From positions 62,001-126,000 of the forward strand of contig QHWB01000036.1 of the NCBI GenBank assembly GCA_003222395.1: a stretch of 64,000 bases of DNA. Reading direction: 5' to 3'. The stretch comes from Acidobacteriota bacterium (GTDB lineage: Bacteria > Acidobacteriota > Vicinamibacteria > Vicinamibacterales > CAVVIG01). The first letter of the stretch is position 1. Every line of letters starts with the position of its first letter. The notes beneath the pieces are model-generated. The model saw nothing but the letters and a program-made list of their open reading frames with translations, was not told the origin of the DNA and did no database searches. A program made the translations under genes and the position numbers. Positions 10 through 33,825 of the stretch are shown one piece after another.

Positions 10-2274
10 ATGGCGGAACCCAAGGCCCCGCACCCTTTGCGCCCCGCCACGACAGCCGATCACCCGGCTGCCGCTGCGCCGACGTCCACCTACACACCCG
101 ACACCGACGTCCACATCCTCGATCGTCTCGCGGTGCTGTACCGCTACCGGCGCGTCGCGATTGCCGTGTTCATCCTGACGACGGTCGCGATGATGATCCA
201 GGGGTACAGCAGCACTCAGATGTACCGCGCTCAGGCGCGGCTGCTCATCGAGGACGAGCGCGCGACGGCGGTGCCGGGCATCACGACAGCCGAAAACACG
301 TATTACGAAGATCCCGACCTTTATTACAAAACCCAGTACCGCATCCTGAAAGGACGCGATCTCGCGCGGCGCGTCGTCAAGCGCGTGAACCTGGGCGCGG
401 TCCCGGAGTTCAACGGCACCGCGGAGAAGCCGTCGACGCCCGCGACGCTGCTCCACGATCTCAAGCAGAAGATCGTCGGCCTCGTGCGGCCGGCGCCGGC
501 GCCGGAGAACACGGAGTCGCCCAAGGTCGACGAGACGGCCGACGAGTCGGCGCTCGTCAGCGCGTTTCTGAGCCGCGTCGACGTCGCGCCCGTCTCCGGC
601 AGCAAGCTCGTCGACGTCACGTTCGATTCGATGGACCGGCGCTTCGCCGCGACGGCGGCCAATACGCTCGTCGACGAGTTCGTCGATCAGAACCTGCAGG
701 TCAAGCTCCAGAGCACGGAGAACATGATCGACTGGCTCGACAAGGAGCTGGACAAGCAGCAGCAGAAGGTGCAGGACAGCGAGCGCGGGCTGGCCGAATA
801 CCGCGAGCGGCAGAACGCGCTGTCTCTCGACGACAAGCAGAACATCGTGCTCGCGCGGCTGAACAAGCTGAACGACGACGTGATGATGGCGCGCAGCCGC
901 CGCATCCAGAAGGAAACACTGTTCAACCAGATCAAGTCGGTGTCGACGCAGGCGCCCGACACGATTCCCGCGATCGCGCAGAACGCGTCGGTCGCGGCGG
1001 CCAAGTCGCGCGTCGTCGAGATGCAGCGGGCGCGCGCGCAGGTCGCCGACCGCTACGGCGAACGCCACCCGAACATGCAGAAGGCGAACGCCGATCTGTC
1101 CGAGGCGCAGCGCCAGTATGACTTCGAGGTCGCGCGGGCGCGCGCTTCGATCAAGAACGACTACGAGTCGGCGTTGATCGAGGAACAGACCATGGCGCGT
1201 GGTCTGGAGAACGCCAAGGCGGACATGCAGGATCTGAGCAAGAAGAGCGTCGACTACAACGTCATGCAGCGCGACTCGCAGACGAACCGGCAGATCTACG
1301 ACGCGCTGCTGACGCGCGAGCGCGAGCTGCGGGTCGCGAGCAACAGCCGCGCGAACAACGTGCGCGTCGTCGACCGCGCCGAGGTCCCGAAGGCGCCGCT
1401 CGCGCCGACCGGCCGGCGCACGTGGCTGCTCTCGCTCGCCGTCGGCCTCACGCTCGCCATTGCCGTGGCCTACGGTCTCGACTACATGAACGACACGATC
1501 AAGACGCCGGAGGAAGTGACGCGGCGCCTGCGCCTGCCCTTCCTCGGCCTGGTGCCGTCGGTGCGCGGCGACAAGCATCCGCTGCTCGCCTCGTCGCACG
1601 TGCCGCACGATTTCGGCGAATCGTTCCGCGCGCTGCGGACGGCGCTGGTCTCGAAGTACCCGTCCGCAGGCACCAAGATCGTCGTCGTGACCAGCGCGCA
1701 GCCGCTCGAGGGAAAGACGACGACGGCCGCGAACATCGCGATGGCGCTGGCGTACGGCGGCTCGCGCGTGCTGCTGGTGGACGCCGACATGCGGCGCCCC
1801 GGCCTGCATCGCCCGCTGCGGCTCACCAACGAGCGCGGTCTGTCGCAGGTCCTGATCGGTCAGGCGCGCGTGCGCGACGTCATCCAGCGCACCGTCGATC
1901 CGAATCTGCTCGCCATCACCGCCGGCCGCACGCCGCCGAACCCGTCGGAACTGCTGTCATCCGAGCGCATGAAGACGCTCCTCACCAACCTCGCGCACGG
2001 ACCGTTCGACTGGATCATCGTCGACACGCCGCCGGTGCTCGCGGTGACCGATGCGGTCATCCTCGCGCCGCTCGTCTCCGGCGTGACGTTCGTCGTCGGC
2101 GCCGAGATGACGCGGCGTCGCCTTGCCGAACGCGCGATCGAGACCGTGATGCAGACGCATCCGAAGTACGCCGCGGTCGTGCTCAACAAAGTCGATTTCG
2201 CCCGCAACAAGTACTACTATCACCGCTACTACGGACATCAGTACAAGAATTACTACGCCGAAGCCGCGATCTGA
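10..2274 (+). CDS. wzc: Polysaccharide co-polymerase / tyrosine autokinase (Wzc-type)
   Basis: Controls chain length and export of surface polysaccharide; in this family the cytoplasmic kinase autophosphorylates a C-terminal tyrosine cluster. A Wzz-like periplasmic part is flanked by two membrane segments (about residues 48-66 and 473-491), with a long coiled-coil and GNVR-type region between them (about 225-470). The C-terminal BY-kinase domain has a Walker A variant (PLEGKTTTAANIA, near 565), Walker A' (LLVDADMRRP) and Walker B (WIIVDTPPV). The last 22 residues hold eight tyrosines. The frame is open to the left window edge and no ribosome-binding site is visible before the ATG at 10, so a start outside the window is possible. 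It is followed by an O-antigen-ligase-like gene, which fits a polysaccharide locus. Confidence 0.92.
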   Translation: MAEPKAPHPLRPATTADHPAAAAPTSTYTPDTDVHILDRLAVLYRYRRVAIAVFILTTVAMMIQGYSSTQMYRAQARLLIEDERATAVPGITTAENTYYEDPDLYYKTQYRILKGRDLARRVVKRVNLGAVPEFNGTAEKPSTPATLLHDLKQKIVGLVRPAPAPENTESPKVDETADESALVSAFLSRVDVAPVSGSKLVDVTFDSMDRRFAATAANTLVDEFVDQNLQVKLQSTENMIDWLDKELDKQQQKVQDSERGLAEYRERQNALSLDDKQNIVLARLNKLNDDVMMARSRRIQKETLFNQIKSVSTQAPDTIPAIAQNASVAAAKSRVVEMQRARAQVADRYGERHPNMQKANADLSEAQRQYDFEVARARASIKNDYESALIEEQTMARGLENAKADMQDLSKKSVDYNVMQRDSQTNRQIYDALLTRERELRVASNSRANNVRVVDRAEVPKAPLAPTGRRTWLLSLAVGLTLAIAVAYGLDYMNDTIKTPEEVTRRLRLPFLGLVPSVRGDKHPLLASSHVPHDFGESFRALRTALVSKYPSAGTKIVVVTSAQPLEGKTTTAANIAMALAYGGSRVLLVDADMRRPGLHRPLRLTNERGLSQVLIGQARVRDVIQRTVDPNLLAITAGRTPPNPSELLSSERMKTLLTNLAHGPFDWIIVDTPPVLAVTDAVILAPLVSGVTFVVGAEMTRRRLAERAIETVMQTHPKYAAVVLNKVDFARNKYYYHRYYGHQYKNYYAEAAI

Positions 2275-2362: not shown

Positions 2363-3682
2363 TTGACGAGCGGCTGGACGCTGTTCGCCTTTGCCGGAAT
2401 CTATCGCTGGACGACGGTTCCGCTCGCCGCCGGCACGGTGCTCGTCGCCGCGCTGTCGCCGCCGCGTGTCGGACGCGGGGCGGCGCGGTGGCTCGATCTC
2501 GCGCTGCTCGTCTCGATCCTCATCATGGCGGCGCAGCTCGTGCCGCTTCCGCAATCGGTGCGGCTGCGGGTCGCCCCCTCGTCGGTCGCCTACGACCAGA
2601 CCGTTCACGTCGCGCCGCCGGATCGCGCACCGATTTCGGTCGATCCCGATGCAACCCGGTTCGCGCTCTTCCTCACCGCCACCATCGTCGTGCTCTTCTG
2701 GTCCGCGCGCCGCACCCTCGCGCGCGGTGGCGTCCGCACGGTCCTGCGCGGCGTCGCGTGGACAAGTCTCGTCGTCGCGCCGCTCGCCGTCGCGCAGCAC
2801 ATGTTCGCGCCGAAACTGTTCTACGGCGCGGTTCGTCCGATCGCCGGCAACGCGCTCCCGTTCACGCCGTTCGTGAACCGGAACGATTTCGCGGCGTGGC
2901 TGCTGATGGCGATCCCGCTGACGCTGGGCTACGTGATCGCGCGCCTCGAATCGCGGCGGCATCCTGGCGATCCGTTCGATCCGGAACTGGCGCTCGACAC
3001 GAAGAACGTGGCGCTCGGGTTCGCGCTGTTCGCGATGATGGCCGGGCTCCTCGCGTCGCTGTCGCGATCCGGCATCGGCGCCGCGCTGGCCTCGTTCGTG
3101 TTGTTTATCGCAGTGGCGCGAAGACGAATGTCGCGCCGCCGGCTGATGTGGATGATCGGCATCATCGCCGCGATGGTGACGCTCGCTCTCATGTACGCGA
3201 ACATGGGCGCGCTCGCCGCGCGCGCCAGCAGCGGTCTGACTGAAGGGATCTCCGGCCGCGCCATGGTCTGGCGCATGACGTGGCCTATGGTGCAGGACTT
3301 CTGGCCGATCGGCTCCGGCGTCGGCACCTATCAGCCGGTGATGGTTCTCTATCAGACCCCCGGCCTGAACCTGTACATCAGCCACGCCGACAACGAGTAC
3401 CTGCAGATCCTCGCCGAGGGCGGCGCGCTCCTGGCGATCCCGGCGGCGCTGGCGCTGGGCGCCGCGTACGTCGCCATCCGCCAGCGCCTGCGCAGCGATC
3501 ACACCCCGCTCTTCTGGATCCGATTGGGAGCCGCGTGCGGCATCTTCGGCCTCGCGGTGCAGAACGTCTGGGAGATGACGCTGCGCGTCCCCGCGAATGC
3601 CGTCCTGCTGGCGGTTCTGGCCGCGATTGCGCTGCATGACACACACGTGCACGCGACGACGCAGCCCGGCCGCACCGCGTGA
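2363..3682 (+). CDS. O-antigen ligase / polymerase-like membrane protein
   Basis: Multi-pass inner-membrane protein, about ten hydrophobic segments, of the O-antigen ligase (Wzy_C) family, which polymerises or transfers lipid-linked oligosaccharides in the periplasm. Seen directly: an NRNDFAAWLLM segment, a GSGVGTYQ segment and a SHADNEYLQILAEGG segment, matching the loop motifs of this family. The proposed start is a TTG. The frame is open upstream to the end of wzc, so an Arg-rich N-terminal extension of about 30 residues is possible. Polymerase and ligase cannot be told apart from sequence alone; a second, different member lies at 27117-28559. Confidence 0.82.
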   Translation: MTSGWTLFAFAGIYRWTTVPLAAGTVLVAALSPPRVGRGAARWLDLALLVSILIMAAQLVPLPQSVRLRVAPSSVAYDQTVHVAPPDRAPISVDPDATRFALFLTATIVVLFWSARRTLARGGVRTVLRGVAWTSLVVAPLAVAQHMFAPKLFYGAVRPIAGNALPFTPFVNRNDFAAWLLMAIPLTLGYVIARLESRRHPGDPFDPELALDTKNVALGFALFAMMAGLLASLSRSGIGAALASFVLFIAVARRRMSRRRLMWMIGIIAAMVTLALMYANMGALAARASSGLTEGISGRAMVWRMTWPMVQDFWPIGSGVGTYQPVMVLYQTPGLNLYISHADNEYLQILAEGGALLAIPAALALGAAYVAIRQRLRSDHTPLFWIRLGAACGIFGLAVQNVWEMTLRVPANAVLLAVLAAIALHDTHVHATTQPGRTA

Positions 3683-3729: not shown

Positions 3730-3758
3730 AGGTGACGTGTAGAATTGCGATCAGCCTG

Positions 3759-4184
3759 ATGGTCCGCCTCATGCGCGAACCAGTCGACGCAGCCTGCTTC
3801 GCGATGGTCGCGATCGCGCAGGCGGCAGTTCGCGCGGCGCTCGTCGTGATGCCGATCGGCGCGGTCCGCCGGACGGGCGCGCGTCTGAGATTCTGCGGCT
3901 GGCTGATCGCGGCGCGGTGGAATGAGGATCGTCTGCTGACCGCAATCGAAGCGACGGGACGCCGGCTGGGCGCTTACAGCACGTGTCTGGTTCGCGCGCT
4001 CGTCGCCGAGATGCTCCTGACCGGCATCGATCGGCCGATGCGTCTGATGATCGGCGTCAGGCGCGCCGCCGACAGCCGGCTCGAATCGCACGCGTGGATC
4101 GAGCGCGACGGACGGGTGATCGTCGGCGGCGCCGGCGGCGATCGATATCAGCCAATCGTCGTGTGGGAGACCGTCGCACCATGA
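3759..4184 (+). CDS. Lasso peptide biosynthesis B2 protein (transglutaminase-like leader protease)
   Basis: A 141-aa member of the transglutaminase-like superfamily (Transglut_core3) that serves as the leader-cleaving Cys protease in lasso-peptide pathways. The triad is visible: Cys76 in STCLVRAL, His111 in SHAWIE and Asp117 in ERDG, and the length matches stand-alone B2 proteins. The N-terminal hydrophobic stretch (about residues 12-30) may contact the membrane. The chosen ATG gives the normal family N-terminus; earlier codons in this frame run into a dispersed repeat. It overlaps the next gene by ATGA, so translation is probably coupled. Together with the leader-bearing protein, cyclase and PqqD-like protein nearby it defines a lasso-like RiPP cassette. 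Confidence 0.85.
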   Translation: MVRLMREPVDAACFAMVAIAQAAVRAALVVMPIGAVRRTGARLRFCGWLIAARWNEDRLLTAIEATGRRLGAYSTCLVRALVAEMLLTGIDRPMRLMIGVRRAADSRLESHAWIERDGRVIVGGAGGDRYQPIVVWETVAP

Positions 4185-5158
4185 TGGCCGGCGACACCGT
4201 AAACCGGTACTCCGTGTACGGGGTGGACGTCAGCAGCCCGTGGCCGTTCGAATTCCCGCCGCTCACTGACGCGGCCAATCCGATCGCGCGCGTCGAATTC
4301 GTTCAGGGCGATGACGACGACTTTCAGGATCCGGCTGGTGGTGAGCTCGCATCCGCGAAGGACGAGTGGTTCGTGTGCCGGCTGCTGCCCGATCGCTCCG
4401 CGTATCTCCGCTGGTCGGGACTGTACGAGTTCCGCATCGGCCGCGGCGGTGCGCGCATAGCATCGCGGCCGCTCGAGGGAAGCGGCCTCCCGGTTCTGCA
4501 GAACTTTCTGTTCGCGCAGACGCTCTCCTTTGCGCTCGTTTACCAGGACGTCGAGCCGCTGCACGCGACGGTGGTCTGCGTCGACGACTGCGCGATCGGA
4601 TTCCTGGGCGACTGCGGCTTCGGCAAATCGACTCTGCTGGCCTCGTTCGTCGCCGACGGTTTTCAGGTGCTCACCGACGATCTGCTCGTGGTCGACCTGT
4701 CGGACGATCGCGCGATCGCGCGGTCCGGTTCGGGCCGCATCAAGCTGCTGCCCGACAGCGCGTCGGCGTTTCTCGGAGACGTGAGCCGCGGCGTGCCACT
4801 GCATCCAAGCACCACGAAGCGGTCGTTTCCGCTCGATGAGCGTCACCGGCACACGGGCGGGCTTCCACTAGACTGCCTGTTCGTCCTGCCGCAACCGGAG
4901 GACCGGACGTCGACCGTGTCCATCGAGCTGCTGCCGCTGTCGCGGTCGGCGCTGATGCAGGAACTGCTCAAGAACAGCTTCATCGTCGAGATGCTCGACC
5001 GCCGGCGGATCGCCGGCCAGTTCTCGTTCGCCGCACAGCTCGCGTCGCGAATCGACGGTGTCCGCCTGAGCTATCCGGCGGGGCTGCACCACCTGCCCTC
5101 ACTCCGCCAACGGATCGTTGAGCACGCGCGGCTGCTGCACGGGAGGAATATCCAGTGA
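4181..5158 (+). CDS. HPr-kinase-like protein of lasso-type cluster
   Basis: A 325-aa protein whose C-terminal half resembles HPr kinase/phosphorylase. A P-loop GDCGFGKS (about 143-150) is followed by VLTDDLLVVD with paired acidic residues. Homologues occur in lasso-peptide clusters; in the paeninodin system one phosphorylates a Ser of the precursor. The N-terminal 130 residues have no motif I recognise. The start ATG overlaps the B2 stop (ATGA), and the stop overlaps the GTG of the next gene (GTGA). No PTS genes are nearby, so a carbon-catabolite role is unlikely. The substrate here is unknown; modification of the neighbouring leader-bearing protein is an inference. Confidence 0.75.
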   Translation: MMAGDTVNRYSVYGVDVSSPWPFEFPPLTDAANPIARVEFVQGDDDDFQDPAGGELASAKDEWFVCRLLPDRSAYLRWSGLYEFRIGRGGARIASRPLEGSGLPVLQNFLFAQTLSFALVYQDVEPLHATVVCVDDCAIGFLGDCGFGKSTLLASFVADGFQVLTDDLLVVDLSDDRAIARSGSGRIKLLPDSASAFLGDVSRGVPLHPSTTKRSFPLDERHRHTGGLPLDCLFVLPQPEDRTSTVSIELLPLSRSALMQELLKNSFIVEMLDRRRIAGQFSFAAQLASRIDGVRLSYPAGLHHLPSLRQRIVEHARLLHGRNIQ

Positions 5159-5616
5159 ATCGAACCAATGACGACGCCGAAGCGGCCAAGCGGGTCGCGC
5201 GCAAACCGTACACTGCCCCGCGCCTGATCTCGTACGGTCACGTCAAGGACATCGTTCAGGGCGGCGGCAACAGGGCCAACGATCCCGGCACCGGACGCGC
5301 GACCAAGCCGGCGCCCTGCTGGATAGCCGAAGCGCTCTTCGGCGTGGACGACGCGCGAACGATGCTCCTGCGGTCCTGGCTGACAGGCATCTACGTCGAG
5401 AGGCGCCGCGGCTGGCATCTTGTTGCGGTGTACGCGACGTACGGATCGGCCGCCGGTTGGTTGCTGCAGCGGGGGTGGCTGCCGCGGCGGCCGTTCGTTC
5501 GCCTCTTCGACGCGCTGACGCGCTGCGCATTCGACGAATCGGCCGCAGCGGCGAAAGCTCGCCGCGCCCTGGCTCGCCAAAGCGCCGCAGGCGCGAAGGC
5601 GGCCGATGCTCCGTGA
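5155..5616 (+). CDS. Lasso-type leader peptide fused to a CWIAEALFG-box domain (candidate RiPP precursor)
   Basis: A 153-aa protein with two parts. Residues 17-38 look like a lasso-family leader recognised by PqqD-like B1 proteins: Tyr19-x2-Pro22-x-Leu24-x3-Gly28, then a GGG run at 36-38. If Gly36 were core residue 1, Asp43 would sit at ring position 8, a normal lasso spacing, but the usual Thr at -2 is Val34. From Cys55 a CWIAEALFG segment begins a domain resembling the CFIATAAYG-type box, which is much longer than any lasso core. The GTG start has a good GGAGG site 7-8 nt upstream and overlaps the kinase stop (GTGA). It may be the true precursor, a fusion protein, or a modified non-lasso substrate. 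Confidence 0.72.
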   Translation: MNRTNDDAEAAKRVARKPYTAPRLISYGHVKDIVQGGGNRANDPGTGRATKPAPCWIAEALFGVDDARTMLLRSWLTGIYVERRRGWHLVAVYATYGSAAGWLLQRGWLPRRPFVRLFDALTRCAFDESAAAAKARRALARQSAAGAKAADAP

Positions 5617-7526
5617 GCGGCATCGCCGGAATCTTTCACTACGACGGGCGTCCGGCCACCGCCTCCGAGCTTCGGGCGCTCACGAATGCGTCGAAACACC
5701 GCGCCATCGACGGCGAAGATTCGTGGGTCTGCGGATCGTTCGGCGTCGCGCACCAGCACGCCCGCAACACACCTGAGTCGCTGCACGAACGACAACCTCT
5801 CGTGTCTGCCGCCGAAACCGTCGTGTGCATCGATGGACGCCTCGACGACCGCGAAGAACTGCCGCGTCCGAGGTCGGGCGCATCCACCGGCGCCTCTGAT
5901 GCCGAGCTCGTCCTGAGCACCTACGAGCGCGACGGCGATCGGTTCGCGTCGCATCTGAACGGCGATTTCGCCGTCGCGGTCTTCGATGCCCGCCGCCACC
6001 AGCTGCTCCTCGCGCGCGACGTCATGGCGGCGCGGCCGCTGTATTACTGCCCGATCGCGGGAACGGTGCTGTTCGCTTCGGAAATCAAATCGCTTCTCGC
6101 TCACCCGCAGGTCGCCGCCCGGCCGGACGAAGACGCCATCGCGCAGCTGATGCTCGACGACTGGTCCGATGTCCACCGTACTTGCTTCCACGGCATCTTC
6201 AGCGTTCCGCCCGGCGCGATGGCGATCGTTACGCGCGACGGCGCTGTCCTCCGCGAGCACTGGACGTTCGACCCCGGCAGAAGCGTGCGATACCGATCGT
6301 TCGCCGAGTACGTCGAGGCATTCCGCGAGCTGTTCGAACGATCGGTGAAGCGCCGCCTTCGCAGCACCCACCCAATCGCCGTGTCGGTCAGCGGAGGCGT
6401 CGACTCGTCGGCGATCTTCTGTCAGGCTGCTGTTCTGGCGCGCCGCGGTGCGGTCTCGGCGCCACTTCAGGGCATCACGATGACGTTCCCGGAAGGCAGC
6501 AGCGCCGATGAACAGCAGTTCATCGACGACATCGAATCGTCGTGCGGCGTGACGGTCGCAAGAGTGGGCGCGTCGGAGGTCGCCGCCGAAATCGATTGCC
6601 ACGCCGTCGTCGATCGCTTCGAAATGCCGGGAATGCTCGGGCATTCACATCGCGCCGTTCTCGAGCGGGCGCGGGCCGCCGGATGCCGAACGATGCTCGA
6701 CGGCTTTTTCGGCGATCAGATGCTGTTCACACGCGCCGGCTACCTCGTGGACCTCGCCAGGAAGGGGCGGTGGCTGAAAGTTCGCGGGGATCTCCGCGAA
6801 TTCGCGAGGTGGATGACCGACGCCGATCCCGCGTACTTCCGCCGTGAGTTCAGGCGCGCGTTCGTCCGATCGCTGCCTCCCCGCTGGCTGTTCCGCGCGC
6901 TGAAACGACACGTCGGCGATTGGCGCGGCAGAACGTCGATGTATCCGTCATGGTTCACCGGGCGGCTTCGGCAGCGCGCGCTGGCGCGTCACACGCGTCC
7001 GATCGACTATCGCGCGTCGCCGGTCACGTATCATGCGCAGGAACTTCACGGGCACGTCACCGCGGGTCACTACCTGAGTCAGCTCCATCGCCAAATCAGC
7101 GCGGGCCAGATGTACGGAGTCGACGTGTGCTATCCGTTCAGAGACAGAGACCTCGTCGCCTTCCTGATGGCGATTCCCGGCGAGATCGTGAATTGGAGGG
7201 GCGTTCCGAAAGGGCTGATGCGGGAAGCGCTGAAAGGCGTCTTGGCCGAACGCATCCGCACGCGGCGGTGGAAGGCGGACCTAACGCGAGTCGGTAATCA
7301 GGCGGCGGCGCGCGGCCACGAAACGATCGCCCGCCTGCTGACGCGCGACTGTCTCAGCGCTCGCCTCGGCTTCGTGGATGGCGTCATCCTCGAGCAGTCG
7401 ATTGCGGCACTTGCGGTCAGCATTGCCGAAGACGAGACGGCAACCACGAGGTGGCAGCTCGAAGACGCCATCGGCCTCGAAGTCTGGCTGCAGCGGTTCT
7501 TTGGGGATCGGGCCGCGAACATCTGA
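5613..7526 (+). CDS. Asparagine-synthetase-like lasso cyclase (C protein), Cys2 absent
   Basis: A 637-aa homologue of AsnB. In lasso pathways such enzymes adenylate an Asp/Glu side chain so that the core N-terminus can close the macrolactam ring. The N-terminal glutaminase-like domain is present (residues 1-about 200), but the residue after the start is Ser, not the catalytic Cys (MSGIAG instead of MCGIAG), so glutamine hydrolysis should be lost. The synthetase PP-loop SGGVDSS is intact at about 260-266. The GTG start overlaps the previous stop (GTGA). The gene ends 2 bp before the convergent PqqD-like gene. The lost Cys and the neighbours favour a cyclase over asparagine synthesis. Confidence 0.85.
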   Translation: MSGIAGIFHYDGRPATASELRALTNASKHRAIDGEDSWVCGSFGVAHQHARNTPESLHERQPLVSAAETVVCIDGRLDDREELPRPRSGASTGASDAELVLSTYERDGDRFASHLNGDFAVAVFDARRHQLLLARDVMAARPLYYCPIAGTVLFASEIKSLLAHPQVAARPDEDAIAQLMLDDWSDVHRTCFHGIFSVPPGAMAIVTRDGAVLREHWTFDPGRSVRYRSFAEYVEAFRELFERSVKRRLRSTHPIAVSVSGGVDSSAIFCQAAVLARRGAVSAPLQGITMTFPEGSSADEQQFIDDIESSCGVTVARVGASEVAAEIDCHAVVDRFEMPGMLGHSHRAVLERARAAGCRTMLDGFFGDQMLFTRAGYLVDLARKGRWLKVRGDLREFARWMTDADPAYFRREFRRAFVRSLPPRWLFRALKRHVGDWRGRTSMYPSWFTGRLRQRALARHTRPIDYRASPVTYHAQELHGHVTAGHYLSQLHRQISAGQMYGVDVCYPFRDRDLVAFLMAIPGEIVNWRGVPKGLMREALKGVLAERIRTRRWKADLTRVGNQAAARGHETIARLLTRDCLSARLGFVDGVILEQSIAALAVSIAEDETATTRWQLEDAIGLEVWLQRFFGDRAANI

Positions 7527-7528
7527 CG

Positions 7529-7813
7529 CTAGCGGGCGACAACCACGAGTCCCTTTTCAACGAGCTGTGAGACCAGGCGAAGCACGTCCTGCTCGATGGT
7601 GGCGGCCGGCGCGTCGAACTCATCGCACATGGCGGCGACGACGGCGGACAGGCTGCGATGCCGCTCGATCAGCTGCCACATGCGCGTCCCGACCGAGTCG
7701 AGTCCGAAATACATGCCCGATGCGAGGTTGAGGAGCACCGCTTCGCCGTCGAGCTCGCGCACGACGACGTCGTCGCTGGCACGCACTGCCGTCTGCAGCG
7801 AAACCTCCGTCAT
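7529..7813 (-). CDS. PqqD-like leader-binding protein (lasso B1)
   Basis: A 94-aa PqqD-family protein, the small winged-helix RiPP recognition element that binds leader peptides and delivers them to the protease and cyclase. The family pattern is seen in DGEAVLLNLASGMYFGLDSVG followed by a WQLIE helix and a C-terminal LVEKGLVV strand. It is encoded on the strand opposite to B2 and the cyclase, and is the last gene of the long minus-strand polysaccharide operon. The 15-nt spacing to the oxygenase gene suggests co-transcription with it. Confidence 0.87.
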   Translation of the reverse strand: MTEVSLQTAVRASDDVVVRELDGEAVLLNLASGMYFGLDSVGTRMWQLIERHRSLSAVVAAMCDEFDAPAATIEQDVLRLVSQLVEKGLVVVAR

Positions 7814-7828
7814 AGCGTCTGCAACAGT

Positions 7829-8482
7829 CTAGTAGCCCGAATCGGCAAGACCCACCGATGGACGAACCGCTTGATCCCTGAACCAGCCGGCGCAGACGGT
7901 TCGCGCTACGCGTCCTTCGGGCGGCGTCACGCGATGCTGCAGCCCGTCTCCGAGCGCGAACAGCACGGCGTCGCCGGGCCGCGTGTTCGCAAACTCGTAC
8001 ACGATCCGGCCGGATGGCAGCTCGCGAATCTGCAGCACGCCTCCGTCGTACGGTTCGGAGCTCAGGTTGATCGAGAGAACCGCCAGCCGGCCGTCGACGA
8101 GATCGTTGTGCCACGCGTCGTCGTGACCGGCATTTGGAACTCTTCGGTGGACGACGCCGCGAAAGCTCCGGATGTCGCGCAGCCCAGTCACACATCGGAC
8201 GAATTCAAGAAATTGCTCGTCGTTCGTCAGGAGCATGAAAACCGCCGACGCCACACCGGGCTTCAGTCTGAGATCGACGGGCCGGCTGGACAACTGATCG
8301 TGCACGCGCTCCTCGAAGCCGTCGAGCTCGACCTGGCGCTGTGCGAACGCGAGCACATCCGGTTCGAGCAGGTCGGGCAGCACCACCGCATGGTCACGCT
8401 CGAAACGCGCGCGCGTCCGCTCGAGCTCCATCGCGGCGGCATCAATCCACGTCTGTCTGAATCCGAGCCGGACCATCGTCAT
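7829..8482 (-). CDS. 2OG-Fe(II) oxygenase (prolyl-hydroxylase-like)
   Basis: A 217-aa protein of the 2-oxoglutarate/Fe(II) dioxygenase superfamily. The metal-binding HxD is seen in WHNDLVDGR (about residue 125), with a distal His in LQHRVTPPEGR and the following Arg probably binding 2-oxoglutarate. The ATG at 8482 overlaps the stop of the upstream nucleotidyltransferase gene (ATGA); a start at 8500 would add six residues. Its position next to the PqqD-like gene makes it a candidate tailoring hydroxylase for the RiPP, but sugar or lipid substrates from the surrounding polysaccharide genes cannot be excluded. Confidence 0.8.
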   Translation of the reverse strand: MTMVRLGFRQTWIDAAAMELERTRARFERDHAVVLPDLLEPDVLAFAQRQVELDGFEERVHDQLSSRPVDLRLKPGVASAVFMLLTNDEQFLEFVRCVTGLRDIRSFRGVVHRRVPNAGHDDAWHNDLVDGRLAVLSINLSSEPYDGGVLQIRELPSGRIVYEFANTRPGDAVLFALGDGLQHRVTPPEGRVARTVCAGWFRDQAVRPSVGLADSGY

Positions 8483-9606
8483 CGGAGGGGCCGGAACCAT
8501 TTGCGGACGCCGCGGAAGACGCGGTGGATGTACAGCGCCGGCAAAAGGATCGCACTGGTCGCGCCGTACGATCGACGCATGAAGTCGGGAGCCGGGACCA
8601 GGTGCTCGCGCAGCAGTTTCACGCGAGCGCGCCAGCCGCGCAGCGCGTGCAGATCGGACCGGAGGATGTCGACTTTACGCAGTCGCGGATCGAGGTACGC
8701 GGCGGTGCTCTCCGAACCACCCGCGCTGTCGAGTGCCGTCTGGACGTCGTCAGGTATCGGCGCCCAGAGTAACCGGCGCGCGAGCGCCAGTCCGCGCGCT
8801 GTCACGGCCCGAATCTGCTTTTCACGCGCCAGCGCGACGACCCGATCCCACTCCGTCGATCCGAAACGGCGTGCGAGCACATCGATGTCACACAGGAAGA
8901 TCAGCGTGTCGTCATCATAATGGTGCGCGACGCGATGCGCGCACGCGATCAACAGCGCGTCGACGACTGAGGGACCGATCGCATGCGGGCCCAGGGCTGG
9001 AATCGGCACGGCACTACGACGAAGTTCGGCGTAGGGGAACAGATCCGCGAATGCCTGAGGATCCGCAATTTTCCAATGCACGTCGAAGGCACTCTCAACT
9101 CCACATGCCGCGCGCACGTACGTGAGCTGATGCGTCACGTGCTCGCCAATGGGTCGGGCGGTTCGTACGAACCGCATCGACTCCAACGCAGCCGACGCCG
9201 CCTCGACGTCTTCCGGCCCGATCAGCAGATCGGTATCGAGGCGCGGCCGCAGCAGCGGATCGGCATAACACGTGTAGGCCAGCGCCGTGCCCTTGAACAC
9301 AATCGGACGCACTCCTGCCTCGTCGAGCGCTTCGAGCACGCAGACAGTCTCTCTATGCCGAATTGATTCGATGACGGCCTCTTCACGGACCGCGCGCGCG
9401 AGCTCGGTCCGAATCTCGGTTGGAAGGCGATCGAAAAGACCGCGTTCACGAAGCGCGCGATGGAGAAGCGGGCCGACGCCGTGGTCGAGGGACGCCGCGA
9501 CGAGTGAGGCGTCCAGGGAACGCAGGACGACCTCGTCGCTGTCGCAGCGGCCGTCGTTTGCGTGCTGATTGTTTCGGAGAAGGGCTGCGAGGGCGGTCGC
9601 CGACAC
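8479..9606 (-). CDS. Nucleotidyltransferase family protein (NTP_transf_5-like)
   Basis: A 375-aa protein of the nucleotidyltransferase family often found beside lasso B1/B2 and HPr-kinase-like genes; its reaction is not established. The catalytic-type pattern VFKGTALAY, then PRLDTDLLIG (about residues 105-135) gives the KG and DxD signature. The GTG start at 9606 lies 2 nt after the stop of the upstream reductase gene; the frame stays open further upstream, but that stretch lies inside the reductase. It ends in an ATGA overlap with the oxygenase gene. Association with the RiPP cassette is by context. Confidence 0.75.
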   Translation of the reverse strand: MSATALAALLRNNQHANDGRCDSDEVVLRSLDASLVAASLDHGVGPLLHRALRERGLFDRLPTEIRTELARAVREEAVIESIRHRETVCVLEALDEAGVRPIVFKGTALAYTCYADPLLRPRLDTDLLIGPEDVEAASAALESMRFVRTARPIGEHVTHQLTYVRAACGVESAFDVHWKIADPQAFADLFPYAELRRSAVPIPALGPHAIGPSVVDALLIACAHRVAHHYDDDTLIFLCDIDVLARRFGSTEWDRVVALAREKQIRAVTARGLALARRLLWAPIPDDVQTALDSAGGSESTAAYLDPRLRKVDILRSDLHALRGWRARVKLLREHLVPAPDFMRRSYGATSAILLPALYIHRVFRGVRKWFRPLR

Positions 9607-9608
9607 GG

Positions 9609-10772
9609 TTACGCGAGCGCGGCGCGGAAGAGCACGCGGCGGGCGGGTGGATGCTTCAGGAGGGCGACGATGAACTCGCGGTGATGGTTGAAGGCGGCCG
9701 TGCGCCGGACGAGCGGCATCAGCCCGTCCGTCCGCGCGAGCGCGAACAGGCCGTCGATGTCGTCGTCGGTCAGCCGCTGCGCGATGCGGCGCAGCACGAG
9801 CTGCCAGCGGAGCTCCGGCCCCAGCTCGCGACGCCACAGCCGCTCGTACTCGTTCAGCGCGGCGGCCGAAAGATCGTCGCGCGACAGCGCGCCGGCGACG
9901 ATCTCCGATGCGAGGCTCGCCGTCATCAGGCTGTAGTAGATGCCGCCGCCGGTCGTCGGCTTCACCACGCCGGCCGCGTCGCCGACCACGACGACGCGAT
10001 CGCCGAACGTGCGATCGATCGGGCCGAGCGGAAGAATCTTCTGGCGAGGCTTGCATCCACCGGCTGCGTCGACGCCCCAGCGCGGCCCGATGTCGCGGAG
10101 CACGCGCTCGAAGTGGCGATGGGCGTGGCGTTCGCACATGACGCCGACGCGCACGTAGGGGCGCTCGCGCTGCACCGGCACCGCCCACGCGAACCCGCGC
10201 GGAGCGATCCGCTCGCCGAAATGGATTTCGACGTCGCCGAGCCGCGCCGCCGGCAGTTCCGCCTGCGCCGAGTGCAGCAGCAGGCGCGGAATGCCGAGGC
10301 GCAGCTTTCGCTGAACGCCGTAGCGCGCGCCGCAGGCGAGCACGCACACGCGCGCGCGCCGCATGGTCGAACCGGACGCGACGGTCACGCCGTCGGCATC
10401 GACGGCGACGCCCGTCACGCGCTCGCCGTACGACAGCTCTGCGCCCGCCAGAGCGGCGCGCTCCGAAAGGCGTCGATCGAACCGGGCCCGATCGATGACG
10501 ACCGCTTCGACCGTGATCGGCGAGTAATCGACGGCATCGCCCGACGGGGGATGAAAGCGGACCGTCCGCAGCTGATTGAGGACGCTGTCGTCGGAGAGAC
10601 CGAATCGCTCGAACGCCTCGGCGGCGAGCACGCCGGTGCAGTGCACCGGCATGCCGCTCGTCGGATGTTCCTCGCAGATCGCGACCGAGAAGCCGGCGCG
10701 GGCGAGCGTCCAGCCGGCGTACAGCCCAGCCGGGCCCCCGCCGACGATGACGACATCGTAAATGTGGCTCAC
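9609..10772 (-). CDS. Geranylgeranyl-reductase-family flavoprotein
   Basis: A 387-aa FAD-dependent oxidoreductase. Seen: a dinucleotide-binding VVIVGGGPAGLYAG at the N-terminus, a HCTGVL motif near residue 45, and GDAAGVVKPTTGGGI near residue 270, all typical of the geranylgeranyl reductase family. Members saturate prenyl chains of lipids or quinones. In a polysaccharide operon a plausible role is to saturate the polyprenyl phosphate carrier, but no substrate can be read from the sequence. It lies 15 nt downstream of a methyltransferase and 2 nt before the nucleotidyltransferase. Confidence 0.85.
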   Translation of the reverse strand: MSHIYDVVIVGGGPAGLYAGWTLARAGFSVAICEEHPTSGMPVHCTGVLAAEAFERFGLSDDSVLNQLRTVRFHPPSGDAVDYSPITVEAVVIDRARFDRRLSERAALAGAELSYGERVTGVAVDADGVTVASGSTMRRARVCVLACGARYGVQRKLRLGIPRLLLHSAQAELPAARLGDVEIHFGERIAPRGFAWAVPVQRERPYVRVGVMCERHAHRHFERVLRDIGPRWGVDAAGGCKPRQKILPLGPIDRTFGDRVVVVGDAAGVVKPTTGGGIYYSLMTASLASEIVAGALSRDDLSAAALNEYERLWRRELGPELRWQLVLRRIAQRLTDDDIDGLFALARTDGLMPLVRRTAAFNHHREFIVALLKHPPARRVLFRAALA

Positions 10773-10787: not shown

Positions 10788-11573
10788 TTATACGGTCTTC
10801 TTGCGCGCGACGAACCACACCTGCGTCGCCAGATGCGGTCCGAGCCGCGGTACCGGCGATGCCACGACGTCGTCGATCGCAAAACGCCGCGCGAGACGAT
10901 CGCGCAGCGCGCGCCAGTTGAAGCCTTTGTGGTCGTGAAACGGTACGTCGCCGTCGAGGTTATGGATGGGACGCGCGATGTGCGGCGCGGCGCCGGCGAA
11001 CACGCTCGCCGCGTACTCGCGCAGGTTGTACCCGGCCGTCCCGCGGTAGTCGCCGATTCCCCGCCACGCGGCGACGCGACGCACCGCCTGTTTCAGCAGG
11101 AGCGGCACACCGGTTTCCACCGGCACGCTGACGATCAGCGTGCCGTCGTCGGCGAGCAGCCGCCACAATCGATCGACGACGGCGTCGACCGCGACGACGT
11201 GCTCGAGCACCTCCATGCAGACGACGCCGTCGTAGGCGCCGTGGTGCGACGGCTCGTCGAGGTGAGCGATCGGCTCGAATCGGAGATCAGGCAGATTGCC
11301 GAGCCGGGCGCGGCAATCCTCGACCTGAAAGGCGTCGAGCTCCGCGCCGACGGCCGATGCCGGTCGATCGTCGCGCTTCCACAAGAGCGCGAGGAACGTA
11401 CCGTCTCCGCATCCGTAGTCGAGGATTCGTTTGCCGCGAAAGCGGGTGGCCAGCGCCAGCCCGACCTCGAAGCGGCGGCGATGACTCCACGCGACGAGGC
11501 GATCTCTGCAGAAGATCTGCTTCGCCGCATAGTGGCCGCGTTCGATCAGAACTTCTTTTCCCGCGCTTCCCAT
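10788..11573 (-). CDS. Class I SAM-dependent methyltransferase
   Basis: A 261-aa methyltransferase. Motif I ILDYGCGDGTFL (about 50-61) binds S-adenosylmethionine, and VVCMEVLEHV matches motif II/III of the Methyltransf_11/UbiE-like group. The start lies 28 nt inside the 3' end of the upstream sugar-transferase gene. Its position suggests methylation of a sugar or terminal residue of the polysaccharide; the acceptor is unknown. It is one of four methyltransferases in the operon. Confidence 0.85.
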   Translation of the reverse strand: MGSAGKEVLIERGHYAAKQIFCRDRLVAWSHRRRFEVGLALATRFRGKRILDYGCGDGTFLALLWKRDDRPASAVGAELDAFQVEDCRARLGNLPDLRFEPIAHLDEPSHHGAYDGVVCMEVLEHVVAVDAVVDRLWRLLADDGTLIVSVPVETGVPLLLKQAVRRVAAWRGIGDYRGTAGYNLREYAASVFAGAAPHIARPIHNLDGDVPFHDHKGFNWRALRDRLARRFAIDDVVASPVPRLGPHLATQVWFVARKKTV

Positions 11574-12148
11574 GTGCCGCGCATCGTGATCCAGAACGAG
11601 AGAAGGATGAGGCGCACGTCGAGCAGAAAGGAGCGCCGCCGGATGTACAGGCGATCGAACCTGAATTTCTGCCGGCGCGAGACGTCGCGCGGCGCGTAAA
11701 TCTGCGCGATGCCGGTCAGGCCGGGCGGCACGGTCGAGCGCTCGTCGAATCCGGGAATCGCGTGCAGCGGCACCGGCGCGCCGGCGGCGTCACCGTCGAT
11801 CTCCTCGGGACGAAGCGCGCGCGGGCCGACGAAGCTCATGTCGCCGCGGAAGATGTTCCAGAGCTGCGGCAATTCGTCCATCGCCGTCGCCCGCAGCACG
11901 CGTCCGACGCGCGTGATTCGCGGATCGTCTGCGTCCGCCTGCTTCGGACCGACATGACGCTCGGCGTCGGCGATCATGGAGCGGAATTTCAGCACCATGA
12001 ACGTGCGTCCGCGTTCGCCGACGCGCGGCTGCGCATAGAACACGGGGCCGCGGGAGTCGATCCTGATTGCCGCGGCGATCAGCGGCCAGAGCGGCGCCGA
12101 GACAATCAATCCGATGCCGGCGAGCAGGATGTCGAACGTTCGCTTCAT
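11546..12148 (-). CDS. Initiating sugar transferase (undecaprenyl-phosphate glycosyl-1-phosphate transferase)
   Basis: A 200-aa bacterial sugar transferase (PF02397 type) that starts repeat-unit synthesis by moving a sugar-1-phosphate to the lipid carrier. It begins with one hydrophobic re-entrant helix (DILLAGIGLIVSAPLWPLI), then the conserved VLKFRSM, RVLRATAMDELPQLWNIF, GDMSFVGPR and PGLTGIAQI segments. The size is that of a minimal catalytic unit such as PglC/WcaJ-C, without the extra N-terminal membrane domain. It overlaps the upstream glycosyltransferase by 4 nt. Confidence 0.92.
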   Translation of the reverse strand: MKRTFDILLAGIGLIVSAPLWPLIAAAIRIDSRGPVFYAQPRVGERGRTFMVLKFRSMIADAERHVGPKQADADDPRITRVGRVLRATAMDELPQLWNIFRGDMSFVGPRALRPEEIDGDAAGAPVPLHAIPGFDERSTVPPGLTGIAQIYAPRDVSRRQKFRFDRLYIRRRSFLLDVRLILLSFWITMRGTWEAREKKF

Positions 12149-22902: not shown

Positions 22903-24210
22903 CTAGGACAGAACGTCATCACTTGTCGTGAAAACCGCAACGGCCGTGGGGATCGGTTCGACATGCCATTCGAGCATCGGCCGAACGACGCCAGGCCAGT
23001 TGCCGGCATATTCGCCCCGGACGCCGTCGCCTTCGCTGCGATCGACGATCTGGAACGACACGACGTCGTATTCGAGCGCGTGGACCAGATCGGGGTTGTA
23101 GCTGCAGACGGCGGCAGCGATGAACAGCTGTCCCTCGGCGAGGAAGTTGCCGGGCAGGCGGCACGTGCAGCGGACGAGGCCCGGCCCGCGCGGCGTGCGC
23201 CACCACACACGGTTGTTGAAGTCGTTGCTGACGAGCAGCGTGATCCCTTCTTCGTTGACGAAGTGAATCGACACGGTCGGACGCGTGCCCGTCTGCAGCG
23301 CCCAGTACTCGACTTCGACGTCGAACGATTTTCGGATGTCGATCGTCGGAGCGATGCGGCCGCGCTCGTCGCGGATGCGGACGGCATGTAACCGCGCGAT
23401 GCCGTCGCCCGGCGCGCCGGCGACGTCGGGCCAGACGCGTTCGGCCGGGCTGCCGGTCCCCGACTGCAGATAACGCCGCGTCACCTGATCGGCCGGTCCA
23501 TCGGCGACGACCGCGCCGTCCTGCATCAGAATGACGCGCTGGCACAGGCGGACGACGCTCGCCATGTTGTGCGAGACGAACAGGACCGTGCGGCCGATGG
23601 AGCGGAACTCCTCCATCTTGCCGAGGCAACGCTTCTGGAAATTCGAGTCGCCGACGGCAAGCACCTCGTCGATCAGCAGGATCTCCGGCTGGAGGTGGGC
23701 CGCGACCGCGAACGCCAGCCGCATGTACATGCCGCTCGAATAGAACTTCACCGGCGTGTCGATGAAGCGCTCGACCTCGGCGAACGCGACGATGGCATCG
23801 AACTGCCGGAGGATCTCGGCACGCCGCATCCCGAGAATCGCACCGCTCAGGACCACGTTCTCGCGCCCGCTCAACTCAGGGTGAAACCCCGTGCCCACTT
23901 CGAGCAGACTGCCGACGCGGCCGTACAAATCGATCGCGCCGCGCGTCGGCTGCGTGATGCGACCGAGCACCTTCAGCAGCGTCGATTTGCCGGCGCCGTT
24001 GCGTCCGATGATGCCGACGGCTTCGCCCGCCCTGACGCGGAAGCTGACATCGTTGAGCGCGTTGATCACCGTGCGGCGCGACGCAGCGCCCGCCCGGAAG
24101 CGGCGCGTCATCGCGCGCATCACGTTCGGCACCGCGTCGCGCAGCGTTCCGTAACGCGCCTGCACGGTGCCGATCGTGTACTGCTTGGTGACGTGGTCGA
24201 CGGTAATCAT
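22903..24210 (-). CDS. wzt: Polysaccharide ABC transporter ATP-binding protein (Wzt-type, with C-terminal glycan domain)
   Basis: A 435-aa ATPase that with the adjacent permease exports lipid-linked polysaccharide. The nucleotide-binding domain has Walker A GRNGAGKST, the signature-type YSSGMYMRLAFAVA, Walker B ILLIDEVLAVGD and H-loop VSHNM. Residues from about 265 to 435 form an extra beta-rich domain of the Wzt_C type, which in O9a-like systems recognises the modified glycan terminus. The ATG at 24210 gives the family-typical N-terminus; the longer frame upstream overlaps the permease gene. A 11-nt gap separates it from the permease. Confidence 0.92.
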   Translation of the reverse strand: MITVDHVTKQYTIGTVQARYGTLRDAVPNVMRAMTRRFRAGAASRRTVINALNDVSFRVRAGEAVGIIGRNGAGKSTLLKVLGRITQPTRGAIDLYGRVGSLLEVGTGFHPELSGRENVVLSGAILGMRRAEILRQFDAIVAFAEVERFIDTPVKFYSSGMYMRLAFAVAAHLQPEILLIDEVLAVGDSNFQKRCLGKMEEFRSIGRTVLFVSHNMASVVRLCQRVILMQDGAVVADGPADQVTRRYLQSGTGSPAERVWPDVAGAPGDGIARLHAVRIRDERGRIAPTIDIRKSFDVEVEYWALQTGTRPTVSIHFVNEEGITLLVSNDFNNRVWWRTPRGPGLVRCTCRLPGNFLAEGQLFIAAAVCSYNPDLVHALEYDVVSFQIVDRSEGDGVRGEYAGNWPGVVRPMLEWHVEPIPTAVAVFTTSDDVLS

Positions 24211-24221
24211 CGGGCGCACGG

Positions 24222-25079
24222 TCAGATGTAATCCGCGAACGTCTGCTCGACGGTGCGAAATGCGCGGACCGCCACCGCCACCATGGCGAACGTCACGAGC
24301 GTCGACAGACCGAGGCCGGCCCAGTCGAGCGGCCTGCCGAAGCACACGGCGCGGAACGCCTCGATGTAGCTCGCCATCGGATTGAGCGCGAGGAACACGC
24401 GCCATCTCGCCGGCACGAGGCTCGCCGAGTAGATCACCGGTGTCGCGAACATCCACAGCTGCATGAAGAACGGCACGATGTAGCGGACGTCGCGGTATTT
24501 CACGTTGACGGCCGCGAGAAATCCGCCGACGCCGGCGGCGAGCAGCAGGATGAGGCCGACGACCGGCACGAGCCCGACGAGCGTCCACGACACGTGTCCA
24601 CCGTAGCGCGCCATCAGCAGCGCGAGGCCGACGGCCGCGATCAGAAAATCGACCAGACCCGAGAGCACGGCAGCGCCGGGAATGATCATCCGCGGGAAGT
24701 ACACCTTCGTGATCAGGTTGGGGCTGCCGACGACGCTGCCGGAGCTCGCGCCGACGCCGGCCGCCATCAGCGTCCAGGGCAGAATCCCGGCGTACGCAAA
24801 CAGCGGATACGCGACGCCGTCCGACGGCACGCGCGCCAGCTTTCCGAAGAACAACGTGAACACGATCATCGTCATCGCCGGCTGGAGCACCGCCCACGCG
24901 ATGCCGAGCACGGTCTGCTTGTAGCGAACCTTGATGTCGCGCCACGCGAGAAAATAGAACAGCTCGCGGTGCTCCCAGAGCTCGCGCAGCTCGGCGCTCA
25001 GCTGCGGTCGCGTCGATCTGATCGCAATGTGAATCTCGCTGGTTGCCGGTTGCTGGGGGCTGGTTGCTGGGAGATTCAT
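24222..25079 (-). CDS. wzm: Polysaccharide ABC transporter permease (Wzm-type)
   Basis: A 285-aa ABC-2 type membrane protein with six hydrophobic segments. The cytoplasmic FYFLAWRDIKVRYKQTVLG element and NLITKVYFPRMIIP loop are characteristic of O-antigen/teichoic acid exporters. The first 14 residues (MNLPATSPQQPATS) are encoded by a heptamer repeat array, so a native start may have been further downstream. It pairs with the Wzt-type ATPase. Confidence 0.9.
   Translation of the reverse strand: MNLPATSPQQPATSEIHIAIRSTRPQLSAELRELWEHRELFYFLAWRDIKVRYKQTVLGIAWAVLQPAMTMIVFTLFFGKLARVPSDGVAYPLFAYAGILPWTLMAAGVGASSGSVVGSPNLITKVYFPRMIIPGAAVLSGLVDFLIAAVGLALLMARYGGHVSWTLVGLVPVVGLILLLAAGVGGFLAAVNVKYRDVRYIVPFFMQLWMFATPVIYSASLVPARWRVFLALNPMASYIEAFRAVCFGRPLDWAGLGLSTLVTFAMVAVAVRAFRTVEQTFADYI
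25039..25079. repeat. Heptamer repeat array (GGTTGCT family) at the wzm start
   Basis: Imperfect 7-bp units of the type GGTTGCT/GGTTGCC/GGGGGCT run through the start of the permease gene. The same family occurs upstream of the anti-sigma gene at 36231-36290. Confidence 0.6.
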
Positions 25080-32910: not shown

Positions 32911-33825
32911 TTAGAAGAGACGCGATCCGACGACGATCTCGTCGTTCGGCTGGACCTTGTCTTCGAGCCTCGCCGAGACCTCGGCGATCTTGCCCTTGAT
33001 CTCGCGCTTGATCGTGACGCGCCGATCGGATCCGCGCTCGCTGAGCCCGCCCGCGAGAATGAGCGCCTGCGCGACGGTCATCCCGCTGTCGTACACATAT
33101 GCGCCCTGATTCTTGACGTACCCGCTCACCCAGAATTTCTTGGCGACCGGCACGTTGATGATGTCGCCGTCCTGCAGGACGACGTCCATGCCCGCTTTGC
33201 CGAGCTCGAGATCCTTGCGGTTCACGGTAATCGCCTGCGGCTCTTTCTCGTACGGCTTCGCCGGATGGACGACGATCACTTCGTTCGCCGCCTCGGACGT
33301 CGGCGACCCCGCCAGCGCCAGCGCCTCGAGCAGAGTCATCGTCAGCCCGGTCAACGTGACTTTCTGCGGCGCGCGCACGGCGCCGGTCACGACAACGCTG
33401 CGCGCCTTGTACTGCTCGATGCCGACGAGCACCTGCGGATTCCTGATCCAACCGTTCTGCAGGCCGGTCGTGATCCGTTTGCGCAGCTCTTCGACCGAGA
33501 GTCCCGCGGCCGGCATTCGTCCGAGATACGGCAGCGTGATCGATCCGTCGGTGTCGACGCGGTACTTCGCGGTCAGATCGCTCTCGTCGATCACCGTGAT
33601 CATGAGCGTGTCCTGCGGACCGATCACGTACTGGTCGCCAACGGCGATGGGCGCGGCCTGCTGGCCGGGCGCGGCTGGCTTCGGCAACGCGACGTCCGGC
33701 GTGGGCCCCGGTTGCTGCTGCCGTTGGGACGGTTGCTGCGCCCACGCGGCAGGCGCGGCCGCCGGCGCGAGAAGCATCCACAGCGTGGGGATGGCAACGA
33801 ACCGCATACCTCGTTCTCTCTTCAT
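32911..33825 (-). CDS. wza: Polysaccharide export protein (Wza/SLBB family)
   Basis: A 304-aa periplasmic/outer-membrane polysaccharide export protein. It has a Sec signal peptide (about 1-30, ending near PAAWAQQ) and no lipobox Cys, unlike E. coli Wza. The Poly_export domain follows (YVIGPQDTLMITV, SLPYLGR-like region), then two SLBB-type domains (VVTGAVRAPQKV and FWVSGYVKNQGAYVY). The ATG shares a base with the upstream stop (TGATG); Met7 is an alternative start. It works with the Wzc-type kinase at 10-2274. Confidence 0.92.
   Translation of the reverse strand: MKRERGMRFVAIPTLWMLLAPAAAPAAWAQQPSQRQQQPGPTPDVALPKPAAPGQQAAPIAVGDQYVIGPQDTLMITVIDESDLTAKYRVDTDGSITLPYLGRMPAAGLSVEELRKRITTGLQNGWIRNPQVLVGIEQYKARSVVVTGAVRAPQKVTLTGLTMTLLEALALAGSPTSEAANEVIVVHPAKPYEKEPQAITVNRKDLELGKAGMDVVLQDGDIINVPVAKKFWVSGYVKNQGAYVYDSGMTVAQALILAGGLSERGSDRRVTIKREIKGKIAEVSARLEDKVQPNDEIVVGSRLF

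Follow-up and report, generated by a model that had tools for sequence, protein, structure and literature searches.

The Locus

The window (the whole stretch of DNA analysed, 64,000 nucleotides from an Acidobacteriota bacterium) carries a compact block of seven genes at 3759–9606, set between genes for a Wzc-type kinase and a Wzy/O-antigen-ligase-type protein on one side and a long run of minus-strand polysaccharide genes on the other (Table 1). A preliminary description had read this block as a RiPP cassette of lasso-like type embedded in a polysaccharide export locus. All seven genes lie where it placed them, and the overlaps that it listed between the plus-strand genes are there as well: ATGA at 4181–4184 and GTGA at 5155–5158 and 5613–5616.

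Table 1. Features of the lasso-type gene block and its surroundings (positions in the window)
Feature	Position	Strand	Remarks
Wzc-type kinase	10–2274	+	
Wzy/O-antigen-ligase-type protein	2363–3682	+	
B2 leader peptidase	3759–4184	+	NF033537 61.8 bits (cut-off 33), Transglut_core3 match; alternative in-frame start upstream at 3732 possible
HPr-kinase-related kinase, candidate core kinase	4181–5158	+	P-loop, His128, Asp167 invariant
Precursor ("leader-bearing protein")	5155–5616	+	153 residues
Leader	5155–5259	+	Precursor residues 1–35; YxxPxL...YG, ends Val(-2) Gln(-1)
Predicted core	5260–5316	+	Precursor residues 36–54; GGGNRAND-PGTGRATKPAP
Predicted ring Gly1–Asp8		+	Asp codon 5281–5283; tail Thr15-Lys16
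CFI-box-type domain	5317–5616	+	Precursor residues 55–153 and stop; CWIAEALFG...
Lasso-type macrolactam cyclase	5613–7526	+	Asparagine-synthase fold; Ser2, not Cys2
B1, PqqD-like leader-binding protein	7529–7813	-	PF05402 70.3 bits; NF033536 63 of 80
2OG-Fe(II) oxygenase, candidate tailoring enzyme	7829–8482	-	PF13640 31.4 bits over 27
NTP_transf_5 nucleotidyltransferase	8479–9606	-	PF14907 141 bits
Geranylgeranyl-reductase-family flavoprotein of the polysaccharide locus	9609–10772	-	TIGR02032 183.8 bits over 158.8
Polysaccharide operon	10788–33807	-	Methyltransferases, WcaJ-type sugar transferase, glycosyltransferases, Wzt, Wzm, Wza
WcaJ-type sugar transferase	11546–12148	-	
Wzt	22903–24210	-	
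Wzm	24222–25079	-	
Wza	32911–33807	-	

The model search that had been proposed as a check came out well for two of the enzymes and short for two others. B2 exceeds the curated lasso cut-off and B1 that of the Pfam PqqD model (23.4 bits), with B1 staying under the cut-off of the lasso-specific models (lasso_PqqD_Bac, 63 of 80). The cyclase finds its top model in the lasso cyclase NF033535, at 341 bits under a curated cut-off of 525 (asparagine synthase, 200 bits), and the kinase matches its models weakly (Hpr_kinase_C, 15.2 of 33.3 bits; HprK_rel_A, 35.6 of 200). Catalytic positions are well kept: all 11 aligned B2 proteins have the same Cys and His (C85 and H120 in the alignment, which are C76 and H111 in the earlier numbering), and among 24 homologues of the kinase the P-loop Gly/Lys/Ser, His128 and Asp167 are invariant, as are the HxD and distal His in 7 homologues of the oxygenase. 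Cys2 is missing from the cyclase and from 38 of 38 homologues, some of whose start codons are uncertain; serine in place of cysteine at residue 2 is expected of a cyclase that lacks glutaminase activity.

B1, the oxygenase and the nucleotidyltransferase form a tight, co-oriented run that closes the minus-strand series of polysaccharide genes at its distal end, as had been proposed. Among the neighbours, models for Wzc, Wzy_C, Bac_transf, Wzt, ABC2_membrane and Poly_export are matched, and the glycosyltransferases were assigned by reading their sequences, with a model scan for some of them. The geranylgeranyl-reductase-family gene adjoins WcaJ repeatedly in related loci. Family models, the acid at core position 8 and the recurrence of the linkage in related genomes, both described below, bear out the original reading, and sequence comparison thus supports a lasso-peptide gene set within a polysaccharide locus.

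The Precursor

The precursor gene starts at GTG, with GGAGG upstream, and encodes the leader KPYTAPRLISYGHVKDIVQ, then GGGNRANDPGTGRATKPAP, then CWIAEALFG and the rest of a further domain. The earlier label of a leader-bearing protein holds as far as the leader goes; the fusion to a CFI-box-type domain had been overlooked. Leader models recognise the leader below their cut-offs (lasso_cyano, 19.1 bits against 33; lasso_leader_L3, 14.7 against 19). Genome-wide there is a single B2 and a single precursor, and neither the genome nor the window yielded a second, hidden precursor.

We fixed the core register by the leader tyrosine (core = Tyr+17) and applied it to such precursors near lasso loci in the same class. 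In this register 28 of the 36 lasso-like precursors have Asp or Glu at core position 8, as against 0–6 at any other position, and the window precursor has the YxxPxL leader, residue 1 after it and an acid within core positions 7–9. Within the window's cyclase clade all 7 precursors carry a [ST][KR] tail motif at 14/15, a count equalled in 0 of 20,000 tail shuffles for a motif picked after inspection. Core lengths of 16–19 residues are ordinary for lasso peptides of this class.

Other precursor families came to light along the way. One, separate from the rest and lying by cyclases and NtrC-type genes (L076 5003+/5228+, L086 7484-/7686-, L088 11201+/11387+, L090 11261+, L095 7838-), has the leader Y[SAE][TA]PEL[VI]xLGxAxxLVLG, in most members an acid at core position 8, and at the C-terminus a strongly conserved G[ILVM][AT]LG[LV]D[DE]. 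In another (L064 8985+, L066 5626-, L067 9811-, L073 1701+, L074 9832-) the predicted cores start DC[FIL]G[LF]C[LT]D, which puts Asp in place of Gly at position 1 and two Cys within the ring.

A Domain Behind the Core

About where an ordinary core ends, the precursor continues into an appended domain of about 99 residues. Instead of a short precursor with its core at the C-terminus, we find 99 residues behind the core in the window and also in two relatives, Acidobacteria bacterium RIFCSPLOWO2_12_FULL_65_11 (G045) and Chersky.31_34 (G052). Their fused precursors are 52% and 40% identical, respectively, to that of the window, and leader, core and CWIAEA domain are common to all three. Gly1 and Asp8 are present in the window precursor, in that of G052 and in both precursors of G045, which also encodes, between its kinase and cyclase, an unfused version of 51 amino acids; the 16-residue core of this version stops where the box starts in the fused copy. 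The cyclase adjoins the precursor in all three genomes. The fusion is thus kept in three genera, all three examples being metagenome-assembled genomes of one family. A pattern-based scan covering 84,980 species genomes, which distant relatives could escape, yielded no fused relatives beyond these two; 396 genomes sampled from the phylum contained no further fused precursor, and a search for plasmid relatives found none.

Profile comparison (hhalign) relates the window domain to CFI-box proteins with 97.2% probability. Scores against NF041770 (CFI_box_CTERM) fall below its curated cut-off of 40 bits, at 14.2 bits for the window and 27.4 for G052, whose copy aligns to positions 1–67 of 69 with an E of 2.2e-6. 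These comparisons support homology of the CWIAEA domain to CFI-box domains, with which it shares the C[FW]IA[TE]A start, the helices that follow and the C-terminal position; unlike the window copy, the other CFI proteins seen have different N-terminal regions that lack a lasso leader. In the window's class CFI boxes are rare, occurring in 3 of 193 genomes. A candidate for a CFI box beside lasso genes elsewhere, in Planctomycetota, was rejected: in this protein (L122 9836-10234+) a Gly/Ala-rich stretch leads into a terminal CWIAEAIFG domain, and its neighbourhood shows no recognised lasso genes.

A structure model built from four sequences (mean pLDDT 58, which is modest) has residues 1–51 disordered and 56–150 helical, compatible with a free core preceding a small domain. 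The modelled helical domain found no match in the PDB (best E, 4.2). Modelling was set aside as a route to CFI-box function, the single-sequence model being poor (pLDDT 46) and the four-sequence model giving just a helical domain.

What the Block May Make

Small, free peptides are the form in which lasso peptides are known. The paeninodin group resembles the window block in its set of B1, B2, cyclase and HPr-kinase-like kinase. Kinase-bearing split-B clusters of this kind, among them Bradymonas bsf (PMC10368454), share these four genes with the window, which differs from them in the domain fused to its precursor, in the 2OG oxygenase and in its polysaccharide-locus setting. The HPr-rel-A system likewise pairs an HPr-kinase-related enzyme (TIGR04352) with a PqqD-like chaperone (TIGR04353); the window proteins score far below both cut-offs (35.6 of 200 and 22.3 of 35 bits), and the window has in addition B2 and a lasso-type cyclase. 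We speak of lasso machinery that probably makes a lasso-like ring, and not of an ordinary lasso peptide, because the short precursor ending in its core, a common feature of strict lasso clusters, is missing. The machinery is otherwise known; the fusion of precursor and protein is the new element.

We infer the following course of events. B1 would bind the YxxPxL leader and deliver it, B2 would cut after Gln35 and before Gly1, and the cyclase would link the newly exposed amine of Gly1 with the side chain of Asp8, while the kinase, the oxygenase and possibly the nucleotidyltransferase may modify core or tail. Val at leader position -2 is rare; in kinase-bearing lasso clusters, those of Acidobacteriaceae included, Ile or Val has been reported there (PMC10368454). 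The CFI-box-type domain would stay behind as the C-terminal protein body. Because this domain lies directly behind the core tail, the predicted product is a small helical protein whose N-terminus bears a macrolactam ring of 8 residues, and should the tail be threaded, the domain could act as the stopper. We give this ring-capped protein, made by B1, B2 and the cyclase, a probability of about 0.5: fused examples number three, the leader and CFI models fall below cut-off in the window, and pieces of the tail could be trimmed. Lasso enzymes tolerate engineered protein fusions at the C-terminus (PMC13352647). In such fusions (Zong et al. 2016, as cited in PMC13352647) the protein likewise sits at the C-terminus of the lasso core, and they are made in the laboratory, whereas the window's fusion is natural.

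Two other outcomes have to be weighed. The product might be an ordinary free lasso peptide of 16–19 residues, the CFI-box part being a C-terminal follower or carrier and removed at a later step. The unfused version in G045 carries the same kind of core, and the core therefore works, or is at any rate retained, when the domain is absent; the core lengths, too, match ordinary lasso peptides of the class. Such a release would call for a second peptidase, however, for which the block has no evident gene, and a mere spacer would not need a sequence conserved across three genera, so that we consider a free peptide unlikely. Less likely still is a leader that does no more than bring B1 and the kinase to a CFI-box protein, the leader being cut or the protein phosphorylated with no ring formed. 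The adjacent, translationally coupled kinase gene would suit this arrangement, as would the aid that B1 gives the kinase in the bsf cluster (PMC10368454), but the invariance of Gly1 and Asp8 and the retention of the cyclase beside the precursor in all three genomes argue for ring closure.

If the ring-capped protein is real, then in nature ring-closing enzymes work on protein ends as well, native enzymes become available for making ring-capped proteins, and the unexplained CFI-box domain gains a testable setting. We found no natural lasso–protein fusion in the open-access literature searched.

Recurrent Linkage to Polysaccharide Genes

B2 is matched in 68 of 193 genomes of the window's class. 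By hand count, over loci that are not independent and several of which lie on short contigs, 18 of the 66 B2 loci whose neighbourhoods were read (the window's included) are within about 10 kb of a gene for Wzc, Wzy, WcaJ or a geranylgeranyl reductase. The window's genome has four Wzc-type places, and with an assumed span of some 50 kb each the expected linkage is 2–3%; if the loci are treated as independent, the binomial tail for 18/66 is 6e-14 at 2.6% and 6e-5 even at 10%. Mapped onto a 39-cyclase tree, the linked label requires 4–5 changes, against about 13 in shuffles, and falls into two clades, the window's and another of nine, plus isolated cases. Because of this pattern and the binomial excess, we take the linkage to be real and recurrent. 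Whether the block always travels with polysaccharide genes had also been asked; recurrence stands and universality does not, since most B2 loci of the class lie elsewhere. The linkage is an association and does not imply that peptide and glycan are joined, and for a peptide displayed with or attached to the capsule, as had been suggested, we have no direct support. A search within the open-access literature found no lasso clusters in polysaccharide loci.

The polysaccharide locus could be a variable hot spot for insertions, in which two pathways sit side by side and do not interact. Linked loci occur in two distinct cyclase clades and as isolated cases, their gene orders vary, most B2 loci of the class are unlinked, and the G052 fused-precursor cluster has no polysaccharide genes on its 11-kb contig, all of which fit such a hot spot. 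Set against these points, 5 of 5 loci with enough flank in the window's own cyclase clade are linked, and the window's B1 and tailoring genes continue the minus-strand polysaccharide operon. We rate the hot spot at a little under even odds; it is compatible with the other readings. As for the ring-capped protein itself, it may act in or near the cell envelope or the polysaccharide machinery. A more specific form of this idea, a threaded Gly1–Asp8 ring at the N-terminus of the CFI-box-type domain, with that domain as stopper and anchor and the product at work within the machinery for polysaccharide assembly or the surface, seems to us doubtful. In the larger context of the class, the recurrent placement suggests that some lasso systems have a cell-surface and not an antibiotic role.

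Lack of an ABC exporter was tried as a mark of the polysaccharide link and dropped because, in a crude motif search, exporter-like genes proved rare around lasso loci of the class generally, whether linked (0 of 21) or unlinked (3 of 50). Three polysaccharide-linked lasso blocks (L016 1135-2328-, L018 11009-12181-, L021 9590-10735+) include a gene for a PrmA/PRMT-like methyltransferase, which is absent from the window's block. Polysaccharide-linked precursors of the sister clade (L019 11128+, L021 9476+, L025 9285+, L026 9190+/9429+/9664+, L100 9301+, L114 7671-), of which L100 has Ala at core position 8 in place of the acid, end in Cys-Leu at core 16–20, about where the fused precursors have the Cys of the CFI box.
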